DNA of 64,000 bases, from assembly GCA_956465555.1 (NCBI GenBank), contig OY101117.1:62001-126000 (forward strand), in the 5' to 3' direction. Below, piece after piece: positions 356 through 63,145 of this stretch; within the stretch, counting starts at the first letter, position 1, and every line of letters begins with the position of its first letter. The notes beneath the pieces were generated by a model. That model was not told the origin of the DNA. It searched no databases and saw only the letters and a program-made list of their open reading frames with translations. This stretch comes from Nitzschia sp. pyKryTriq1. Lineage: Eukaryota > Bacillariophyta > Bacillariophyceae > Bacillariales > Bacillariaceae. The position numbers were made by a program, and so were the translations under genes.

Positions 356-409
356 TTACAACAAGGAGCAAGAAGCACCATCGCAAATGTAGGTAGACTG
401 GCATGTAAT
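356..409 (-). other. Terminal exon B, diverged second copy of the last exon
   Basis: It follows a CTTTAG acceptor at 410. Phase-0 translation gives 17 residues with Cys at positions 3, 9 and 14 and a TYIC core, then TAA at 358-356. It is preceded on the minus strand by one more microexon (TCC, 570-572, CAG acceptor, GTAAGT donor) and a repeat-type intron at 410-569. It could be an alternative C-terminus reached by skipping exon A, giving a 500-nt intron 573-1072, or a dead duplicate. Confidence 0.5.
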
Positions 410-852
410 CTAAAGGAACCGAGAGATTTGCATTGGAATCACAACAACAACCAGCCACGAGACGGATGAGTGTTTAGCAACGTCCAAGCAATCCCCTGCT
501 CCGTTCGTCCGTCCATTCGAACCGACATGAATAATCCAATCAATGAACTGTATATTGTATGGTACTTACGGACTGCGGAAGGAAAAAAGAGATTTGTATT
601 GGAATAACAACAACAAGGCAGGAGACGCGTGAGTGTTACTACGAGTACTACTACGAGTAGTAAATCAAGCTCTAATCCATTTTAAAGTTGAAGCCATCTT
701 GTTCGGGAACACACTTGGAGGATGGGACGGATAACACATGCTAATGCTAGCATCGTTCCCCGGGCCCTCCAACAACTAATATCTTTCTTTAAACAGAACT
801 GCTCGAACCGGATTAAAGACTGCCTTGCAGTCGGCACACCGTCTTCGGTAAT

Positions 853-909
853 TATACCGCCAAAGTGCATACTCCAGTAATGCAATTGTAGGTAACGTGG
901 CATTTATCC
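853..909 (-). other. Terminal exon A of the microexon gene
   Basis: It follows a CCTTTAG acceptor at 910 and, read in phase 0, encodes 18 residues with Cys at exon positions 3, 9 and 14 and a TYNC core, then TAA at 855-853. Exon B has the same Cys spacing. Downstream on the minus strand (about 852-805) is a segment with a close copy after exon B, probably shared 3' UTR. Confidence 0.6.
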
Positions 910-3900
910 TAAAGGAACCGAGAGATTTGCATTGGAATCAAAACAACAACGAGCAAGGAGACGGGTAAGTGTTTTGCAACGTGTAAGCATTCCCTTGCTC
1001 CTTGTATCCGTTTCATTTGACCCGACTCGACCCGAGACATCCAATCAATGAACGGTATCGTATTGTACTTACAGCCTAAAAGAAGGAACCGAGAGAATTG
1101 CATTCGAATAAAAACATAGAGCAAGGAGACGGGTAAGTGTTTCGCAACGTCAAAGCAATGAACTGTATTGTATTTTACTTACAGACTAAAAGAAGGAACC
1201 GAGAGAATTGCATTCGAATAAAAACATAGAGCAAGGAGACGGGTAAGTGTTTCGCAACGTCAAAGCAATCCCCTGCTCCGTTCGTCAGGAAAGTTTGACC
1301 CGAACTGTATTGTATTCTACTTACATTCTAAAAGGGAAGAAGAGAGATTTGCATTAATACAAACAACGATCCGGGAGACGGTGAGTGTTTCACAAAGTGA
1401 AAGCATTCCCTTGCTCCGTGCATTCGTTCATTTGACTAGACCCAAACCGAAAGTATTGTACTTACAATCTAGGAAAAGAAGATGAGAAATTTTGCATTTG
1501 AATAACAATACCGAGCCAGGAGACGGGTGTGCCTTTCTCCATCCATCCCTTTCATTTGACCCGACCCGACGAGAAACATCCAATCAATGAACCGTATAGT
1601 ATTTTACTTACAAGCTAAAAGAAGGAACCGAGAGAATTGCATTCGAATAAAAACATAGAGCAAGGAGACGGGTAAGTGTTTCGCAACGTCCAAGCAATCC
1701 CCTGTTTTGTGTACATCCGTCCACTTGATCCGATCCGAACCGAAACATTCAATCAATCTCTTATACTTACCACCTAGGGGGAGAAAAAAAGAGATTTGCA
1801 TTCGAAAGAAGGTTAAGTTTTTCGCAAGGTTAAAGCATCCCCCTGCCGCGTCTTGCATCCTCCGTCCATTTGATATGACTAGACCCAAGGGAGGTTATTG
1901 TATTGTACTTACAGACTAAAAGGGCAAGAAGAGAGATTTGCATTTGAATCAGAACAACGATCAAGGAGACTGGTGAGTGCGTCGCAGCGTGAAAGCATTC
2001 CCTTGCTCCGTGCATCCGTTCATTTGACCCGACCCGATCCAAAACATCGGATCGATGAACCGTATCGTATTTTACTTACACCCTAAAAGGGAAAGAAGAG
2101 AGATTTGCATTTGAATAACAACATAGCGCAGGGCGACGGGTGAGTGCGTCGCAGCGTGTAAGCATTCCCTTTCTCCATCCATCCCTTTCATTTGACCCGA
2201 CCCGATCCGAAACATCCAATCAATGAACCGTATTGTATTTTACTTACATCCTAAAAGGAAGAGAAAAGAGAATTGCATTCGAATAACAACATAGAGCAAG
2301 GAGACGGGTAAGTGTTTCGCAACGTCAAAGCAATCCCCTGCTCCGTTCGTCCGTCCATTCGAACCGACATGAATAATCCAATCAATGAACTGTATATTGT
2401 ATGGTACTTACAAACTGCGGAAGGGAAAAAGATATTTGTATTGGAATAACAACAACACGGCAGGAGACGCGTGAGTGTTTGGCAACGTGAAACCATTCCC
2501 TTACTCCGTGCATCCGTTCATTTGACCCGACCCGATCCGAAACATCCATCCAATCAATCAAATGTTATATATTGTACTTACATTCTGAAAGGGAAAGAAG
2601 AGAGATTTGAGTTAGAAAAGCAACAACCAGCCACGAGACGGATGAGTGTTCAGCAACGTCCAAGCAATCCCATCAATGAAGATTATTGTATTGTACTTAC
2701 AATCTAGGAAAAGAAGATGAGAGATTTGCATTTGAATAAAAATACCGAGCCAGGAGACGGGTGAGTTTGTCGCAACGTGTAAGCATTCCCTTGCTCCTTG
2801 TATCCGTTTCATTTGACCCGACCCGACGAGAAACATCCAATCAATGAACTGTATTGTATTTTACTTACAGACTAAAAGAAGGAACCGAGAGAATTGCATT
2901 CGAATAAAAACATAGAGCAAGGAGATGGGTAAGTGTTTCGCAACGTCAAAGCAATCCCCTGCTCCGTTCGTCAGGAAAGTTTGACCCGACTTGAAAAATC
3001 AAATCAATGAACTGTATTGTATTCTACTTACATTCTAAAAGGGAAGAAGAGAGATTTGCATTAATACAAACAACGATCCGGGAGACGCATGAGTGTTTCG
3101 CAAAGTGAAAGCATTCCCTTGCTCCGTGCATTCGTTCATTTGACTAGAGCCAAACCGAAACATTCAATCAATCTCATATACTTACGTTCTAGGGGGAGAA
3201 AAAAAGAGATTTGCATTCGAAAGAAGGTTGAGTTTTTCGCAACGTTAAAGCATCCCCCTGCCGCGTCTTGCATCCTCCGTCCATTTTATATGACTAGACC
3301 CAAGAGAGATTATTGTATTGTACTTACAAGCTAGGAAAAGAAGATGAGAGATTTGCATTTGAATCACAACAATGATCAAGGAGACTGGTGAGTGCGTCGC
3401 AGCGTGAAAGCATTCCCTTGCTCCGTGCATCCGTTCATTTGACCCGACCCGATACGAAACATCGGATCGATGAACCGTATCGTATTGTACTTACATCCTG
3501 AAAGGGAGAGAGGAGAGATTTGAGTTAGAAAAGCAACAACCAGCCAGGAGACGGGTAAGTGTTTGGTAACGTCAAAGTAATCTTCTGATACGTGTATTCT
3601 TCATTCGACAAGACCCGACCTAACCCAAAACATTCAATCAATGAAGTGTATTGTCTTGTTGTACTTACAAGCTTGGACAAGGAAAAGAGAGATTTGCATT
3701 TGAATAACAACAACGATCGAGGAGACGGGTGAGTGTTTTGCAACGTCAAAGTAATCTCCTGCTCCGTTCATCCGTCCATTTGATCCGACACGACCATCTG
3801 ATCAAGGAATTTTATTTTGTACTTACATCCTGTGGGAAGGGCCCGAACGATTTTTATTGTAATGTCAACAACGAACAGGTGTTTCGCAACGAAAGAGAAG

Positions 3901-4426
3901 GAAAAGAGAGATTGGCATTGAAGGGGGGAAAAGAGAGATTTTCATTTTCATCGCAAGAAAGAAAAAGGGGCAAGGCATCGGGTGAGGAGTGTTTTGCAAC
4001 GTCAAAGCATCGCCAATTGGAAGCAGAGCATACTATACGTACGATGCAAGAAATAGGAGGAGGCGGGCATTCCGGGCAAGTCACAACAGGTGCTGCAGTT
4101 GGTTGTGCAGTTGGTTCGCCCTTGCCCTTGCCCTTGCCCGCCTTGGCGCTGAACTTGGGAGTATTGGCACACAGCTTCCTGCTACCACGAGTGTAGACGT
4201 GTTTGTCGTCCTCAAACATCATTTGCTTCAATGCCTGTAGCTCATGCTTCAGCGCTTCGTTTTCATGCTTCAAGGCATCGATGATTGTGCTGTCGTCCGA
4301 CTCCAAAACAAGTTCGGAAGAAGAAGAGGAGAACGATGAAGACACTGGCGATTCTGCCGCAACAACAACAACGACAGAGGACGAGAAAGCCAACGCGAGT
4401 AGGAGTGTGGCGTTAACAACTTTCAT
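853..4426 (-). CDS. Small secreted Cys-rich protein built from 19 consecutive 3-nt microexons (predicted)
   Basis: Predicted spliced gene of 165 residues. Exon 1 is 4426-4043 and encodes 128 residues: a signal peptide (about 1-24), a Ser-rich stretch, a short heptad region (about 48-70, E/L/K rich), a GKGKGKG segment, then a Pro/Cys segment with C117, C120 and C127. It ends in an ATC codon followed by a GTACGTA donor at 4042. Next come nineteen 3-nt exons, each between a pyrimidine-rich AG acceptor and a GTAAGT donor, all phase 0. The terminal exon is 909-853, with C150, C156, C161 and a TAA stop. No known domain is recognised. If exon 1 is read without splicing, the frame stays open to 3854 and yields a tail made of intron repeat. 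That is the annotation a gene finder would give, and I think it is wrong. The start at 4426 was chosen because the signal peptide begins there; the upstream in-frame extension is not convincing. Splicing is inferred, not shown. Confidence 0.7.
1073..3829 (-). other. Array of nineteen 3-nt microexons
   Basis: Each unit reads, on the minus strand, pyrimidine tract, AG, three variable bases, GTAAGT. Microexons in transcript order: GAT 3827-3829; CTT 3669-3671; GAT 3495-3497; CTT 3328-3330; AAC 3186-3188; AAT 3032-3034; TCT 2869-2871; ATT 2701-2703; AAT 2582-2584; TTT 2412-2414; GAT 2248-2250; GGT 2080-2082; TCT 1913-1915; GTG 1771-1773; CTT 1612-1614; ATT 1466-1468; AAT 1325-1327; TCT 1183-1185; GCT 1073-1075. 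They encode DLDLNNSINFDGSVLINSA. All 19 donors are GTAAGT. Acceptors are TAG in 14 cases, CAG in four and AAG once (3672). Introns between microexons are 107-171 nt. The spacing of exactly three bases is kept in every unit although the bases themselves vary. Confidence 0.7.
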
Positions 4427-5182: not shown

Positions 5183-8100
5183 CTACTCCATGCTCGGTGG
5201 AAGAGGCCGGATTTGATCTACCGGCACGCCAACAGCCGAGTCTCCATCGGCAAAGTCCACGTCGTAACCTCCTCCATTCTCATGAACGTGGACAATGGTC
5301 GCTGGAAACCATCCTGCTGCCGATGATGATTCTTCCTCGTCATCTTCTTGGTCGTCGTCGTTGAAAAAGGCCAGGACTTGTTGACCATGCATGTAGTAGG
5401 ACGAAACCTCTTCTTCTTCATCTTCACCGAGCGAGGGAGATGCCAACGTGCTGCTGCTGCTGCTGCTGGCGTCGTTTTGAGAAGAAGATGCTGATGGTGT
5501 GGTCCGTGTCGTGAACGATGACGATGACGATGACGACTTCATCATAAAATTACTCATCTTGATACTTGTGGTTCGGGCTTTTCCCTTGGGCTTCTTACCG
5601 CGTATCGACAAAGGCTTGATACGAGCCAGAGGGACATTATCTTCAAAGTCGCCACCCGCAAATTTCAAGGAATAGGTCGTGGTCGTTGTCGTCTTTTCCG
5701 CATTCTTCTTCTTCTTTGTAGTACTACTACTACTAGTAGTAGTAGTAGTAGTAGTATGGATCCGATGGATTCGAGCCGGGAACCATTGTCCCTCTCCATC
5801 ATACTGCGCTAGCACTCGGTCACCCTTTGCCAATGGATACGAGGGAGAATCGACCACAAGTGGGGGCGTGGCCGCTACTGCTGCTGCTGCTCCTGCTGCT
5901 GGATCCACCACATACGATGGCAATCGAATGAGCTCGGACGATAAGATTTCATCCGGAATATCATCGTCGTCGTCGTAGTCGATATAGCGAACAGTCACAT
6001 CTCCCAAAGGATGGACCGAGAGGATTTGTACCGTTAGCCATTCCGCATCCTCGTCATCCGCAGTGTCGACATTTTCGACTTGAGCCAAATCACCTTGTAC
6101 CAAACTGTAAAAGGGTCGAAGAGAATCCTTGGGGACGACGTGGGTAGCTCCCATGCCGCCTTCCATGGCATAATCGACACTGACCAGGTCATCATTGATA
6201 GCAATACCGACCGTAGCCTCCCAATACTCGCCACTTTCAAAGTAGGGTGCCATGACTCGATCGCCCTTGCGGACTACACGCAGCGTTGAACCCTTGGCAT
6301 TGCAAAAGATCAATAGGGATGGTGTTTTGGTAGAAACAGGGGATGACGATGCCAGAGTGGTCGGGAGTACATTCTTCTCGGAAAGGACCGAGTAGAGAGA
6401 GGCTGTCATCATCCTGCTCTTGTTGGTGGTGGACGGCTTGGTAGTAACGGTAGCAGTGGTCGCGTTTTCCTCCACTCCCTGGTCGTTTTTTGTGTGGACA
6501 TGCTTTCGATACAGTACCGATTGCCAATCCAAGACGATTTGGGAGGTAAACTTTCGCGCCATGATCGTTTCTCGTTGCCGCCCAAAGCGGGCATCGGCGA
6601 GTACAATCTTGAGATGTTCATCGAGGTGTCCCGTCAGGGAAAGACCACCATGCTTGCTGTTGTTGTTCTTCGTGTTCTTCTTTTTCTTGGCATGGACTTG
6701 ACGTGCGACAAACTCCGTCGCTTCTTCCTTGGTCATGAGACTCCAATATCCTGTTTGCCAATCCTGTTGCAAGAATCGAGGAGTAACACCTTGTACCGGT
6801 TGATTCATGTATGCCTGGATCAACAATGTTGATGTTGATGGTGTTGACGATGGACCGCCGCCACCAAAGGCTTGCAGTGCCTTTTGGAATTCGAGATTAC
6901 CAGGATGATAATCCAAAACATGATTGAAACTGGCAAGATACGGAGCATCGAATCGACTTCCGACCAAGACATCTTGACGGGTCGGAAAGGTAGTTCTGGT
7001 TGCGGTGGTTGCGGCGCCGCCGGTTGGTGTGGGTGGTTCCGGAAAGGGTTGCCGCCACGTATCCCGCATATGAATGCGTCTTCCCAAATACGAGACTTGG
7101 GTGACATAATGCCACAATCCCAGCCAAAACATGGCCGTGACGAGATATCGCACCAATACCTGCTTGACAAAGTATCCCGCTCCACGTTGCGTGACGGCAA
7201 TAATGGTGGTATGAATAATGACATACCATGCCAAGGCGATCCAATGAATTTGATCGGCCAGATCCTTGATGTTGGTAGCGAATTGAATGAGAAAGGATTC
7301 CCATTCCAATTCTTCGTCCTCTTCTTCTTGGGCGAGTTGTTCCAATTTCATCAATTCTCGGTGCTTCTTTTGGAGATTATTGTTATTGGGTTCCTTGTTG
7401 TCATTTTCGGCATTGGCCAATAATAATAAGTCTTTGGGGATGGATCGTCGTCGTCCTTGTAACCATCGAGGTACGTGAAGACTTTCATCGAGAAATTTCA
7501 AAAAGTCGCGCAATTCGTAATGGGAAAAGAAATCTTCGTCATTGGCCAATTGTCGGGCAAAATGTTCCAACCAGGGAATGCCCCATTTCGTGTGGGGCAG
7601 TTTCCAAATCCCCAAGGCCCGAAGCGCGGCAATGGGTTGTGTCATGCGGGTCGCGGCATGTTTCAAATCTTCATACGTATGTCCCCACATGTTCCATCGT
7701 TGATAATAATACGTTCCCAATCCTTGTTGCCGAACATCTCCGTTATTATTTTTCTTCTTCTTCAAGTAGTTGTTGGCATTGTTGTCATGTTCTTGTCGGG
7801 ATACAAATGTGACAATAAACATGACCCGATTCATGATACGATCCTTGTCAATATTTCGTGGACCACGATGCCATATATTTTGATTAAACATCATTCCATC
7901 TCCTTGATACAACAATCCGACATCACGCCCCGTTTGGCCATTGCTCGAGACTTCAAAGGCTTGATGAAAGGGCTGCTCGTCTTCTGTTGTTGTTGCTGTT
8001 GTTGTGGATACTGGAAGACAAATATCGGACAAGTCTTCATTGGCACACCATTGCGTTCCTGGACAGACGGTCGTGGCTCCCATTTTACTGGTCGTATCTT

Positions 8101-9170
8101 GGAGTGCCATAAAGAGCGTATAGGAATGCAAAAAGGTCCTCGAATACAAGAGCGACGAGGCAAAGTAATCGGAATCGGTATGAATGCCTGGTGATGGTGG
8201 AAGAATGGAGAAGTAAATTAGTATTAGTATAGTAGAAGTAGACGTGGAAACGTTCGAAAGTGATGAATGGTGGTGAGAAGCAGCGCAAAAAAGCAAAGCA
8301 ACGCAAAAAAGCAAAGCAAAGCAACGCCAATCCTTCATTTCAAAATAATAACAATATATCATATATCATATCATATCATATATCGTACTACGTACCTTGC
8401 ATTTGAGCTCCATGCAAGGTCGTCAGGGTACTAATTTCGACAATGGCAGGATCCGGTCCGACAATACCTTCCAGAGTCGTTCGTAATACCTCATGGGTTC
8501 CGACTTCTTGGAGGGCACGAGCAATAATCGTTGGATGATCATCGACTCCCAATCCCAACGACAATCGTCCAATATCACCCCAAAACTTTTCATGCCAGGG
8601 CAACTTGTCTTTGATCGCATGCCGTGTCTCGAGATATTCACGTAGTTGATAGGCCGTTTCATTCGATAACAAATTCCGAATCAATACCGCGCCATGAGTC
8701 ATCATGATCTCTCGGGCCTGTTGTTCCGGAGTAGTAGTACTTGTAGTACTAGTACTAGTACTAGTACTACCATCCAGTCGGGCATCGGGAACGATCAAAT
8801 CGTTGCTGTTGCTCGTGGTGATATCACGACCATCGCATTGGCGTCCATAGTACGTCATGTCGGGGATGAAATCGGTATAATATCCGAACGCATCGACGCT
8901 GTTGGGAGAACGACGAAAGGATTCAATCAAGGTTTGCAACGGCCCTACATACAAGGCGTGACTGAACCAAGTGGCGGCCCATACCGTCACCACAATCCAA
9001 AAGGGGAACTCCAACAAGATCCATCGAAGCGTAGACGCAACAGCAGAAGGAGAAGTAGAAGTAGAACCGGTCGACTTGGACTGCTTGGATTGGGAGGCAC
9101 TGCTTCCGCTTCCGTTAGCGCTACTGCTACCGCCAGCAGTGCTGATGGGGCTAGGATCTATTTTCAACAT
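5183..9170 (-). CDS. Membrane-anchored 2-oxoglutarate/Fe(II) dioxygenase-like (PhyH type) protein with Tudor-like C-terminal segments
   Basis: Two exons, 9170-8396 and 8187-5183, with a 208-nt GT-AG intron (8395-8188, donor GTACGT, acceptor CACCAG). The join is in frame and gives 1259 residues. The start at 9170 opens a Ser-rich N-terminus and a transmembrane segment at about 47-75; an upstream in-frame ATG at 9242 is possible. The dioxygenase part resembles phytanoyl-CoA dioxygenases. The splice creates G-I-H-T-D, the likely HxD iron site (H261, D263); the distal His is probably H365 (WHRGPRN), and R375 or R379 may bind 2-oxoglutarate. A second hydrophobic region lies at about 567-625. The C-terminal third has three or four Tudor/SGF29-like segments starting near 893, 950, 1044 and 1189, each with G-D-x-V or similar and a W-x-x-A core. 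The substrate is unknown. The family call is motif-based. Confidence 0.75.
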
Positions 9171-30037: not shown

Positions 30038-31373
30038 GCTCTTCTTCTTCTTCGTTTTCTTTGTGGATATGAGCTTTTAGACCAGTAGTGTAGTATATTA
30101 GTAGAGCGATAGGAGCTTCAATGATGACCTTGAAAGCGCATCTGCTTGTTTATCGTAGTAGTATTGTAGTAGTATTAGCTTGAATGCAAATATTGGGTTG
30201 GGTTGGGTTGGGTTGGGTTGGGTTGGGTTGGGTTGGGTTGGGTTGGGTTGGGTTGGGTTGGAATGACGATCGCAATGATAGTAGTATATGCAGAGAGAGA
30301 GAGAGAGAGAGGAGCGAGATGAAAGAGAGGAGAAAGGGGATGAAGAATAAGTCACTGGATCAGATGATCGCGATGAAAGATGAAAGGCGGAGCGCCTTTT
30401 CAGCCTTCCTGGCTGGCTGGCTGGCTGGCTGGCTGGATTATGCACACCACACAACGCACGCACGGAAGGATACTGGATACTGTACTGTGGTACTAGTACC
30501 GGTAGTAGTACTGTAGTAGTAAATAATAGTTGTGCCCGCGAGTGAATGATGCTGCACGCGCACACACGGCGGCGGCTACTCCTCGCTGGATGCATGCATG
30601 CATGCATTCATGGATGCATGCATGCAGCATGCAGGAAGTTTTAGGAACCTTTTGTATGGATTATTAGTGCCCTTTTCAACAACTTTGGGTGTACCGACCT
30701 GTGCATGTTGTGTTTAGGTACTGAAAGCCCGTACAACATGTCAAATAATAATTGCCCTGCATGCTTGTACCGGTATTATGTTGCCTGCCTGCCTGGCTGC
30801 CGGGAAGAAGAACAACCGATCGATTATTGTTCGTCGACCGACCGACGTCATGCATTCTTCCCTTACATACAAGCAAAAACGGTAATGAAATCGACACGTG
30901 CGTCATCACGAGAAGAAATGGTGGCAAGCTAAAACTAACTACAGTACGCACGGTCTACCGGCCGGTACCACTATTAACGCTTCGCTAGCTGCGTACTCAT
31001 ACGCACGGGGTCATTGACGAGGACGAGTGAATCGTCGTCGTCGTCCGAGGAGGAGGAGGAGCATAGTCGTTCGTCGTCATCAACAACACGCCGAGTGACA
31101 ACTGCGATATCGTCTGGAAGGAAGAGAGAGGAGAGCTGATTTTCGTTGTTGTTCTTCTTGGAGGTTGTTTACCCATGCTGGTGCGGTGTTTTTTTTGATT
31201 TTTCAAGTACTACTACTACTACTACTTGTTGCTGTTGGTGCTTGATGGTGCTTATTTTTTGCTACATGGTCATCATGAATGCAATGATCTTTCACGCCAG
31301 TACTACTATATAGTAGTAGTTGAACAAGAAGAAGAATGATGATGATCATGATCATGATCTAGTACTACTACCA
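30038..31373. other. Intergenic region with a (TTGGG)n tract and (GGCT)n
   Basis: About 30193-30260 is (TTGGG)n, roughly 13 units. A GA run is at 30294-30311 and (GGCT)n at about 30409-30436. ATGC-rich palindromes (GCATGCATGC) are at 30591-30632. No gene is seen. Confidence 0.65.
30193..30260 (+). repeat. (TTGGG)n pentanucleotide tract
   Basis: About 13 perfect units, some 155 bp upstream of the ATPase ATG on the opposite strand. Runs of three G spaced by TT can form G-quadruplexes. It differs from the TTAGGG telomere repeat. Confidence 0.9.
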
Positions 31374-62150: not shown

Positions 62151-63145
62151 TAGAATACTCGTTCTTCTTTCTACTAATAGCTAGTAGAGAGAGAGCGCGC
62201 AGAAGACTATAGTATAACCAGCAGCAGAAGTACTATCAGCACAGTGATACAGTACACGTACTAGTACTGTTGCTCCCTTTCCCTTTATATATAAATATAT
62301 AATACAACACTAAATTTTGAATAGAAACTACCATACAACACTAAATTTTGAATAGAAACTACCCTATCCGACAAGTGCACTCGTAGTACCTGTAATAGTT
62401 CTTGTTTGCACTCCAGCAACAGAAGAATCATGAATCATCATCTATCGTATGAGTGACTTCGGCTTCGCTCTCTACTACGCTAGTAGTAGTAGCTAGTAGA
62501 AGACATCATAGCGTATCAGCAGCCTCTAGTATGAATAACTAGAAGTTCCCCACCTACTGGAGTACTAGCTTTAGTCTATCGTACTGCGTGTCGTTTGTTG
62601 TACTCGAGAATCTCGTCGTATAGTGGTGTCTTCGGCGGCTTTGCTCTCTACGTAGTGTATCAACATCATCTACTAGTAGTACCGGTATATACTTTACTAC
62701 TCTAGCTCGTCTCTACTCTACTAGAGTCTATGCTTTCACGACGATTCTAGCGAGACCACTCGCCTCACGACTGTCAAGGTAATTGTTAATTTAGACAGTG
62801 CACTTTTACGCTGCTTTACCTTAGCTTACTCTACTACTAGTAGATAGTAGAGCTAGTAGAGTAAATACTACTAGTCGAGCTGAATCTCTCGGTAGTCTAC
62901 TAGTAAAGTATACTGCTGCCACTGTGGTACTATTAGTAGAAGCTTCTACACGATAGAGTAGCTTTCTTGTCCTGTACCACGATGAACCAGCAACGGAGGA
63001 TGCAGTGTTATTGGTGTACCTTTATGTAGTAGTATGGTCGGGATACATATTATAGTAATATATCAAAATGAGCCCACCCGACGAACGCCGTACCAAGCCA
63101 GGGCTCTCGGTTACAAACTACTCCTACCTGTACTGCCATCATACT
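62151..63145. other. Intergenic region with a 31-bp tandem duplication and dispersed repeat copy 3
   Basis: At about 62303-62364 the unit TACAACACTAAATTTTGAAT... (31 bp) occurs twice in a row. A minus-strand copy of dispersed block Y with its flank is at about 62766-62819. TAG/CTA palindromes are dense. No gene seen. Confidence 0.6.

Follow-up and report, generated by a model that had tools for sequence, protein, structure and literature searches.

A run of single-codon exons predicted in a diatom protein-coding gene

Introduction

Can a spliceosome assemble part of a protein one codon at a time? The question is raised by a gene on the minus strand of a 64,000-nt stretch of the genome of the diatom Nitzschia sp. 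pyKryTriq1 (C3:62001-126000, hereafter the window; the genome comprises 40.65 Mb on 20 contigs), for which an initial annotation had proposed a middle part made of nineteen consecutive 3-nt exons. Exon definition and the steric limits on adjacent splice sites belong to the core of splicing theory and, if the proposal is true, the spliceosome handles acceptor–donor pairs 3 nt apart about 20 times per transcript. Sequence comparison makes it very probable that the middle stretch consists of genuine one-codon exons, in a diatom protein-coding gene whose C-terminal part is encoded at one codon per exon. The proposal is supported from outside the window by a paralogous gene with an array of its own, a transcript-derived protein from a relative and an intron in a crotonase gene.

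Anatomy of the window gene

Each of the 19 array units on the minus strand has the form AG-NNN-GTAAGT, with the fixed spacing that the initial annotation had described, and the array is flanked by two in-frame end exons (Table 1). The codons in order translate as DLDLNNSINFDGSVLINSA, identical to the reading given there, and the claims that exon 1 ends on a codon boundary before GTACGTA and that the spliced product has 165 residues likewise hold. For the terminal exon, the three Cys and the stop stand, and the limits, formerly placed at 909 and 853, are here 908 and 852. All 20 introns of the gene (107–213 nt) are GT-AG, and retention of any single one leads to a frameshift or an in-frame stop (20/20). 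On the minus strand of the whole window, the nearest AG lies 3 nt upstream for 21 of the 25 GTAAGT sites, namely the 19 of the array, that of a candidate 20th unit with the codon TCC, and one elsewhere.

Codons of the form NNT make up 17 of the 19 in the array. Because NNT codons can never be stops, the absence of stop codons, which had already been called weak evidence, amounts to almost no evidence, and it was dropped as support for coding.

The 3′ regions 569–304 and 1072–806 match each other by BLAST over 272 columns at 77%. The segment 356–572 on the minus strand partially duplicates the 3′ portion of the gene and could provide an alternative 3′ end.

The antisense of the array units (plus strand, 964–3750) carries a repeated GTAAGTG/GTGAGTG motif, and in the whole window the nearest AG is 4 nt upstream in 8 of the 15 plus-strand GTAAGT sites. 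Coding on the plus strand was considered and rejected, as the would-be acceptors and donors vary by eye between units.

A second array in a paralogous gene

In a paralog, L025 on contig C11, exon 1 has 121 codons and closes in phase 0; 24 units come next and then a terminal exon, every one of them in phase 0. Exon 1 of the window gene is 37% identical to that of L025 in an alignment starting at an inner Met (E 1.4e-6 in the genome protein search). The same AG-NNN-GTAAGT anatomy is found in 24/24 units, whose codons read YPTDFLNTPTIPTFLGRLTDLDAY, and the terminal exon reads PACAFSVTYTCPPDKYGYCVGQIVSV followed by a stop, with a C-VTY-C pattern that corresponds to CHVTYNC in the window gene. Across both arrays the AG stands exactly 3 nt upstream in 43 of 43 GTAAGT sites, despite inter-unit introns that range from 107 to 178 nt in length; since the paralog repeats the spacing in all 24 of its units, the spacing seen in the window exceeds chance. 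In both genes an intron roughly 50 times its length divides each such codon from its neighbour.

The introns of both genes are without exception GT-AG (45/45; 99–213 nt), with pyrimidine runs towards the 3′ end when inspected by eye, and retaining any of them produces a frameshift or stop (45/45). In 17/20 introns of the window gene and 25/25 of the C11 gene, a CTNAY motif is found in the last 90 nt. Aligned with one another, the codons of the window and C11 arrays score 16, and the tail of an intronless paralog on C2 (see below) scores 17 against the C11 codons, with no sign of kinship.

A genome-wide search for the pattern GTAAGT, 140–170 nt, AG, 3 nt, GTAAGT returned 34 matches: the window array accounts for 11, a single stretch of C11 for 21, and two lie elsewhere. 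With a gap of 109–139 nt there were nine matches, seven of them within the two arrays, and with a gap of 60–90 nt there were five, none within the two arrays; a relaxed pattern (exon of 0–30 nt, gap of 140–170 nt) matched 123 times. No further array was found beyond the two with the GTAAGT-donor, 3-nt-exon patterns at these three gap ranges, nor was there one in the 6 kb around each of the weak additional protein matches on C4 and C1.

Among the matches listed for the relaxed pattern, C4:894-1168, C9:765-1039 and C10:944-1114 are near-alike sequences by the contig starts, with the look of a subtelomeric repeat.

A transcript-derived protein from a relative

When 5.8 billion proteins were searched by profile, with the joined products of both array genes plus the intronless paralog as queries, two matched. 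One, P0001, is identical to the intronless C2 paralog from an inner Met onward. The other, P0002, is a complete 162-residue protein from a transcript of MMETSP, a transcriptome project. Over residues 1–121 it is 82% identical to exon 1 of the C11 gene. The region around the array position runs ...PPTLPSCN-PTDFSGIPSGIGRLTDL-IECALTVTYSC..., with the 17 residues of PTDFSGIPSGIGRLTDL following the exon-1 part and a homolog of the C11 terminal exon coming after them. Within these residues, PTDF and GRLTDL follow the order of C11 exons 2–5 and 16–21. The alignment of the segment with the C11 array scores 57, a value that none of 20,000 shuffles of the C11 order reached (best 45.5). Since P0002 holds codons of the C11 array in order, the C11 triplets are, judged by alignment, homologous to translated codons.

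When P0002 was used to search the genome, C11 matched its exon-1 part and not its tail; weak matches were also seen on C10, C11 (two) and C6, with E of 0.02–1.4. The window codons score a chance-like 17 against P0002, compared with 57 for the paralog, and support for the window's own gene comes by analogy with its paralog. All 17 residues of P0002 are NNT-encodable, for which the probability by its own composition is about 0.007, weak evidence in itself. Structure prediction of P0002 from its single sequence gave a mean pLDDT of 57.8, with one confident helix within residues 41–79 and low values in the array part.

Codon-like behaviour of the three exonic bases

The intron-plus-exon units were aligned within each array (18 units in the window, 23 in C11), and columns with no more than 30% gaps were counted. 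In both alignments no column is more diverse than those of codon positions 1 and 2: their values are 0.78 and 0.73 in the window (ranks 1 and 2 among 154 columns) and, in C11, 0.76 and 0.73 (ranks 1 and 2 among 156). The mean column diversity is 0.25 and 0.20, respectively, and that of codon position 3 is 0.22 and 0.0. A T occupies position 3 in 17/19 codons of the window array and 24/24 of the C11 array (41/43 together), compared with 40/146 and 39/147 in the rest of the coding regions of the two genes.

Close pairs of units, defined by 0–1 differences over the 25 nt that precede the acceptor and not independent of one another, differ at 65% of codon sites 1–2 in the window array with the TCC unit (10 of 190 pairs) and at 42% in C11 (12 of 276 pairs). 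Window units 5 and 14 differ in all three codon bases, and their flanks differ at 0/25 positions upstream and 1/25 downstream. There are also close pairs in C11 in which the codon is unchanged in nearly the same flank (units 2/9 with CCT, 3/10 with ACT and 6/21 with CTT). Duplication of a codon-plus-intron cassette, followed by fast change at positions 1–2, would explain both the differing and the codon-keeping pairs.

An intronless paralog

The family also includes an unbroken gene on C2, L033, which reads ...PPTPPTPIYC and then continues into a 28-codon tail, where NNT codons number 24/28 as against 17/97 before the tail. In the 3′ region after the stop, short stretches are common to the paralogs: window 734–682 matches L033 (85% over 53 nt) and partly L025 (78%, 46 nt). 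A copy of a spliced mRNA would look like this, and an ancestral intronless gene is the alternative. The initial annotation had named homologous proteins of related species that lack the segment as evidence to the contrary; the transcript protein has 17 residues there, and the intronless paralog 28.

An array-type intron in a crotonase gene

When a C11 unit was used as a DNA query, it matched 23 places in C11 and one on C4, the latter being a lone intron, in an unrelated crotonase gene, that is on average 72% identical to the C11 introns and 66% to those of the window gene. Its junction lies between KWGLVP and DMSAA, and the solved enoyl-CoA hydratase/isomerase 4og1 aligns through KWGLVP|DM free of gaps; because protein homology spans the junction, the borders of this intron, GTAAGT and TAG, are fixed. 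Removal of the intron thus leaves a continuous conserved protein, which was observed at this relative of the array introns. The same two borders are common to 40 of the 45 introns of the array genes. A candidate branch-point motif, CTTAC, starts 62 nt before the 3′ end of the crotonase intron, and CTNAY starts at exactly 62 nt in 12/20 introns of the window gene and at 65 nt in 16/25 of the C11 gene. By sequence, the array unit is therefore kin to a genuine spliceosomal intron.

A dispersed intron family beyond the crotonase copy was not found in three DNA searches of the genome, whose counts are lower bounds. A tree of the 20 window and 25 C11 introns, rooted with the crotonase intron, places those of the two genes in separate clades (support 0.93 and 0.79), which indicates that each array expanded, or was homogenised, within its own gene.

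Weighing the alternatives

The array might instead be a minisatellite within one large intron, with exon 1 joined straight to the terminal exon and the splice-site motifs being relics, decoys or intermediate sites of recursive splicing. In its favour, the units form a tandem repeat, all exons are in phase 0 so that skipping keeps the frame, and a cryptic exon at an intronic ratchet point in Drosophila is always skipped (PMC8605326). However, a junk repeat leaves unexplained why variability in both arrays is highest at codon positions 1 and 2, the relative's transcript protein has 17 residues here that match paralog codons in order, and the intronless paralog has an NNT-rich tail at the same place. 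Codon-position variability and the inclusion of the codons in the transcript protein led us to discard the minisatellite as the principal explanation, and we regard it as very improbable. Two other explanations accept the exons as real. If they were included in varying subsets, each gene would yield a combinatorial family of tails, which is compatible with one-codon exons and which we consider possible but rather doubtful: each exon is one whole codon, so that any skip stays in frame, P0002 has fewer residues than the paralog has exons, and a candidate second terminal exon lies at 409–356, yet P0002 derives from a different gene copy (82% in exon 1) and has residues absent from the paralog array, making its length no firm guide to skipping, and an identical GTAAGT donor follows every single-codon exon. 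Alternatively, introns may have been inserted one by one into a contiguous coding stretch, through introner-like gain or reverse splicing, so that the codons are older and C2 preserves the old state. The introns average 75% identity in the window and 81% in C11, whereas codon positions 1–2 look unrelated; an intronless paralog exists, and the occurrence of the same intron family once in a crotonase gene indicates that it is able to reach new places. Against this, nothing explains why insertion should occur at exactly every third base and only in phase 0, the C11 close pairs that share a codon (CCT, ACT or CTT) and a near-identical flank are as cassette duplication predicts, and the three genome DNA searches, with counts that are lower bounds, gave no dispersed family beyond the crotonase intron; we think insertion unlikely.

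Several points weigh against one-codon exons or against parts of the interpretation built on them. The reversed control of the genome-wide pattern outnumbers the real one (453 versus 23 matches forward, 22 versus 11 reverse), an excess that is probably made up of simple repeats; because the control is higher, the pattern counts alone have little weight and it is the clustering that carries the case. P0002 is a single record, it has 17 residues against the 24 exons of the paralog, of its seven residues between PTDF and GRLTDL only IP recurs among the ten codons of the paralog, and its own gene, known from the protein alone, could be intronless. Two protein searches found no protein of a relative that matches the window's own 19 codons. 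At the crotonase junction, the alignment with the second-best chain, 3g64, has a one-residue gap beside it. A T as the last base of an exon is an atypical donor context, and 3-nt exons are sterically difficult. The stepwise order of splicing and the diversifying selection proposed below are inferences, and the suggested role in biosilica rests on a short motif without a chance control.

Proposed mechanism and product

If the single-codon exons are genuine, the spliceosome probably works through the array stepwise from its 5′ end, since simultaneous occupation of an acceptor and a donor with 3 nt between them is improbable. Each splice would add one codon to the upstream exon and expose the next GTAAGTA donor, a step that would resemble a recursive-splicing ratchet point except that the codon is kept. 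All 19 codons would be included in the source species. The arrays may have grown by tandem duplication of the codon-plus-intron cassette, independently in the two genes; codon positions 1–2 would then have changed much more quickly than the introns, with diversifying selection as the probable cause. More tentatively, and with somewhat less than even confidence, we suggest a chain of kept-codon ratchet steps whose cassettes are duplicated, reordered, swapped or skipped in frame, giving a modular tail with possibly many isoforms.

The product may be secreted, as the appearance of the N-terminus suggests to the eye, and would combine a coiled coil with an RXL-type site, a Lys-rich stretch and a tail that is variable and encoded by NNT codons. 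One R.L match (R-K-L or R-M-L) is present in each of four family members (4/4), a motif count that has no chance control. RXL, a likely processing motif, and lysine clusters are both described for diatom silica-associated precursors (PMC4557024), and a role in the cell wall or in biosilica might perhaps be guessed at. Scanning of three members against Pfam gave matches solely below the curated cut-offs (HALZ, DUF3972, AP3D1 and LCD1); no dedicated silaffin search was made.

Comparison with known systems

The initial annotation knew of no gene with a run of single-codon exons, and none was found in the literature on diatom microexons, 3-nt exons and arrays, as far as its accessible portions go, most subscription journals lying outside the search. 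Within those portions, which also delimit the comparisons below, the arrays would be a new, extreme variant of the microexon gene, more extreme than any in the literature searched. The general kind would be the microexon-rich gene, in which a run of exons of at most 30 nt enters the mRNA; here such inclusion may be judged by homology, from the C11 codons that P0002 holds in order.

The schistosome MEG proteins are secreted, and their genes string together very short exons whose lengths are mostly divisible by three; these exons measure 6–81 bp and mostly 15 bp, with introns of 0.1–5 kbp, in the text, and 3–81 bp in the abstract (PMC10526429). Here, in contrast, all array exons are 3 nt and the introns belong to one tandem family of about 155 nt, so that the array genes fall outside a range of 6–81 bp exons and 0.1–5 kbp introns, the introns of 99–213 nt overlapping just its low end. 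Aphid bicycle genes encode fast-evolving putative effectors and contain many microexons, more than 100 in one gene (PMC9168663). They are insect genes with internal exons almost all in phase 2, and no single-codon run appears in the available text of PMC9168663. The array genes here are, by contrast, in phase 0. Exons of the bicycle genes are also longer than the 3-nt exons here.

Individual 3-nt exons are known, for example exon 8 of Drosophila homothorax (PMC7392893) and the first-listed of three consecutive microexons of 3, 18 and 22 bp in human RPS24 (PMC12686416). In those genes, as far as described, one 3-nt exon per gene is spliced into the mRNA, compared with 19 or 24 in succession here. 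In recursive splicing, known from Drosophila Ubx and other genes, acceptor and donor are adjacent and the splice regenerates a donor (PMC8605326). At such ratchet points, as described there, the acceptor touches the donor; the arrays lack directly juxtaposed AG|GT, having 3 nt in between in 43/43 cases, one codon that would be kept. Introners are families of similar introns within one genome (PMC9860276), and the main text of that paper has no mention of diatom, Bacillariophyt-, tandem or stramenopil-. Unlike the many dispersed copies in unrelated genes that mark introners, nearly all copies here were found in two tandem arrays, with one dispersed, in a crotonase gene (counts being lower bounds).

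With two arrays, an intronless paralog and a crotonase copy in a small genome, the origin of introns and tiny exons becomes directly testable. Gene predictors that impose a lower limit on exon length will overlook genes of this kind.

Coordinates of the features

Table 1. Exons, introns and related features of the window gene, with two loci elsewhere in the genome; positions are those of the window unless a locus or contig is named.
Feature	Location	Strand	Description
Exon 1	4426-4043	minus	128 codons, ends in phase 0 before GTACGTA; homologous exon 1 in L025 and P0002; by eye, hydrophobic N-terminus, coiled-coil-like heptads, R-K-L motif and G/K-rich linker
Intron 1	3830..4042	minus	213 nt, GTACGT...CAG
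Array	1073..3829	minus	19 predicted single-codon exons, separated by 18 introns of 107-171 nt
Array exons 1-4	3829-3827, 3671-3669, 3497-3495, 3330-3328	minus	GAT, CTT, GAT, CTT
Array exons 5-8	3188-3186, 3034-3032, 2871-2869, 2703-2701	minus	AAC, AAT, TCT, ATT
Array exons 9-12	2584-2582, 2414-2412, 2250-2248, 2082-2080	minus	AAT, TTT, GAT, GGT
Array exons 13-16	1915-1913, 1773-1771, 1614-1612, 1468-1466	minus	TCT, GTG, CTT, ATT
Array exons 17-19	1327-1325, 1185-1183, 1075-1073	minus	AAT, TCT, GCT
Last intron	909..1072	minus	164 nt, GTAAGT...TAG
Terminal exon	852..908	minus	DKCHVTYNCITGVCTLAV and stop; three Cys; aligned with the terminal exons of L025 and P0002
Candidate 20th single-codon exon	570..572	minus	TCC; downstream of the first stop; motif AG-TCC-GTAAGT at 574-564
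Intron between TCC and second terminal exon	410..569	minus	
Candidate second, alternative terminal exon	356..409	minus	ITCQSTYICDGASCSLL and stop; frame unchanged
Lone array-type intron	L044:5146-5321 = C4:1638146-1638321		176 nt, phase 0, in a crotonase gene
Intronless paralog	L033:4999-5376, C2		unbroken family gene of 125 codons

Other observations in the window

The gene is adjoined by a long open reading frame of 1059 aa on the minus strand (5183–8362), with a match to an Agenet domain (40.1 bits against a cut-off of 27) and a marginal one to SGF29 Tudor (24.1 against 23.8). Among the 8000 best candidates scored for one window protein, 17 relatives included one with an organism name, Nitzschia sp. 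Nitz4, at 54% identity, which makes a pennate diatom likely. Elsewhere, the window contains a perfect 31-bp repeat in two copies at 62302–62363 and a perfect TTGGG array of 13.8 copies at 30193–30261.

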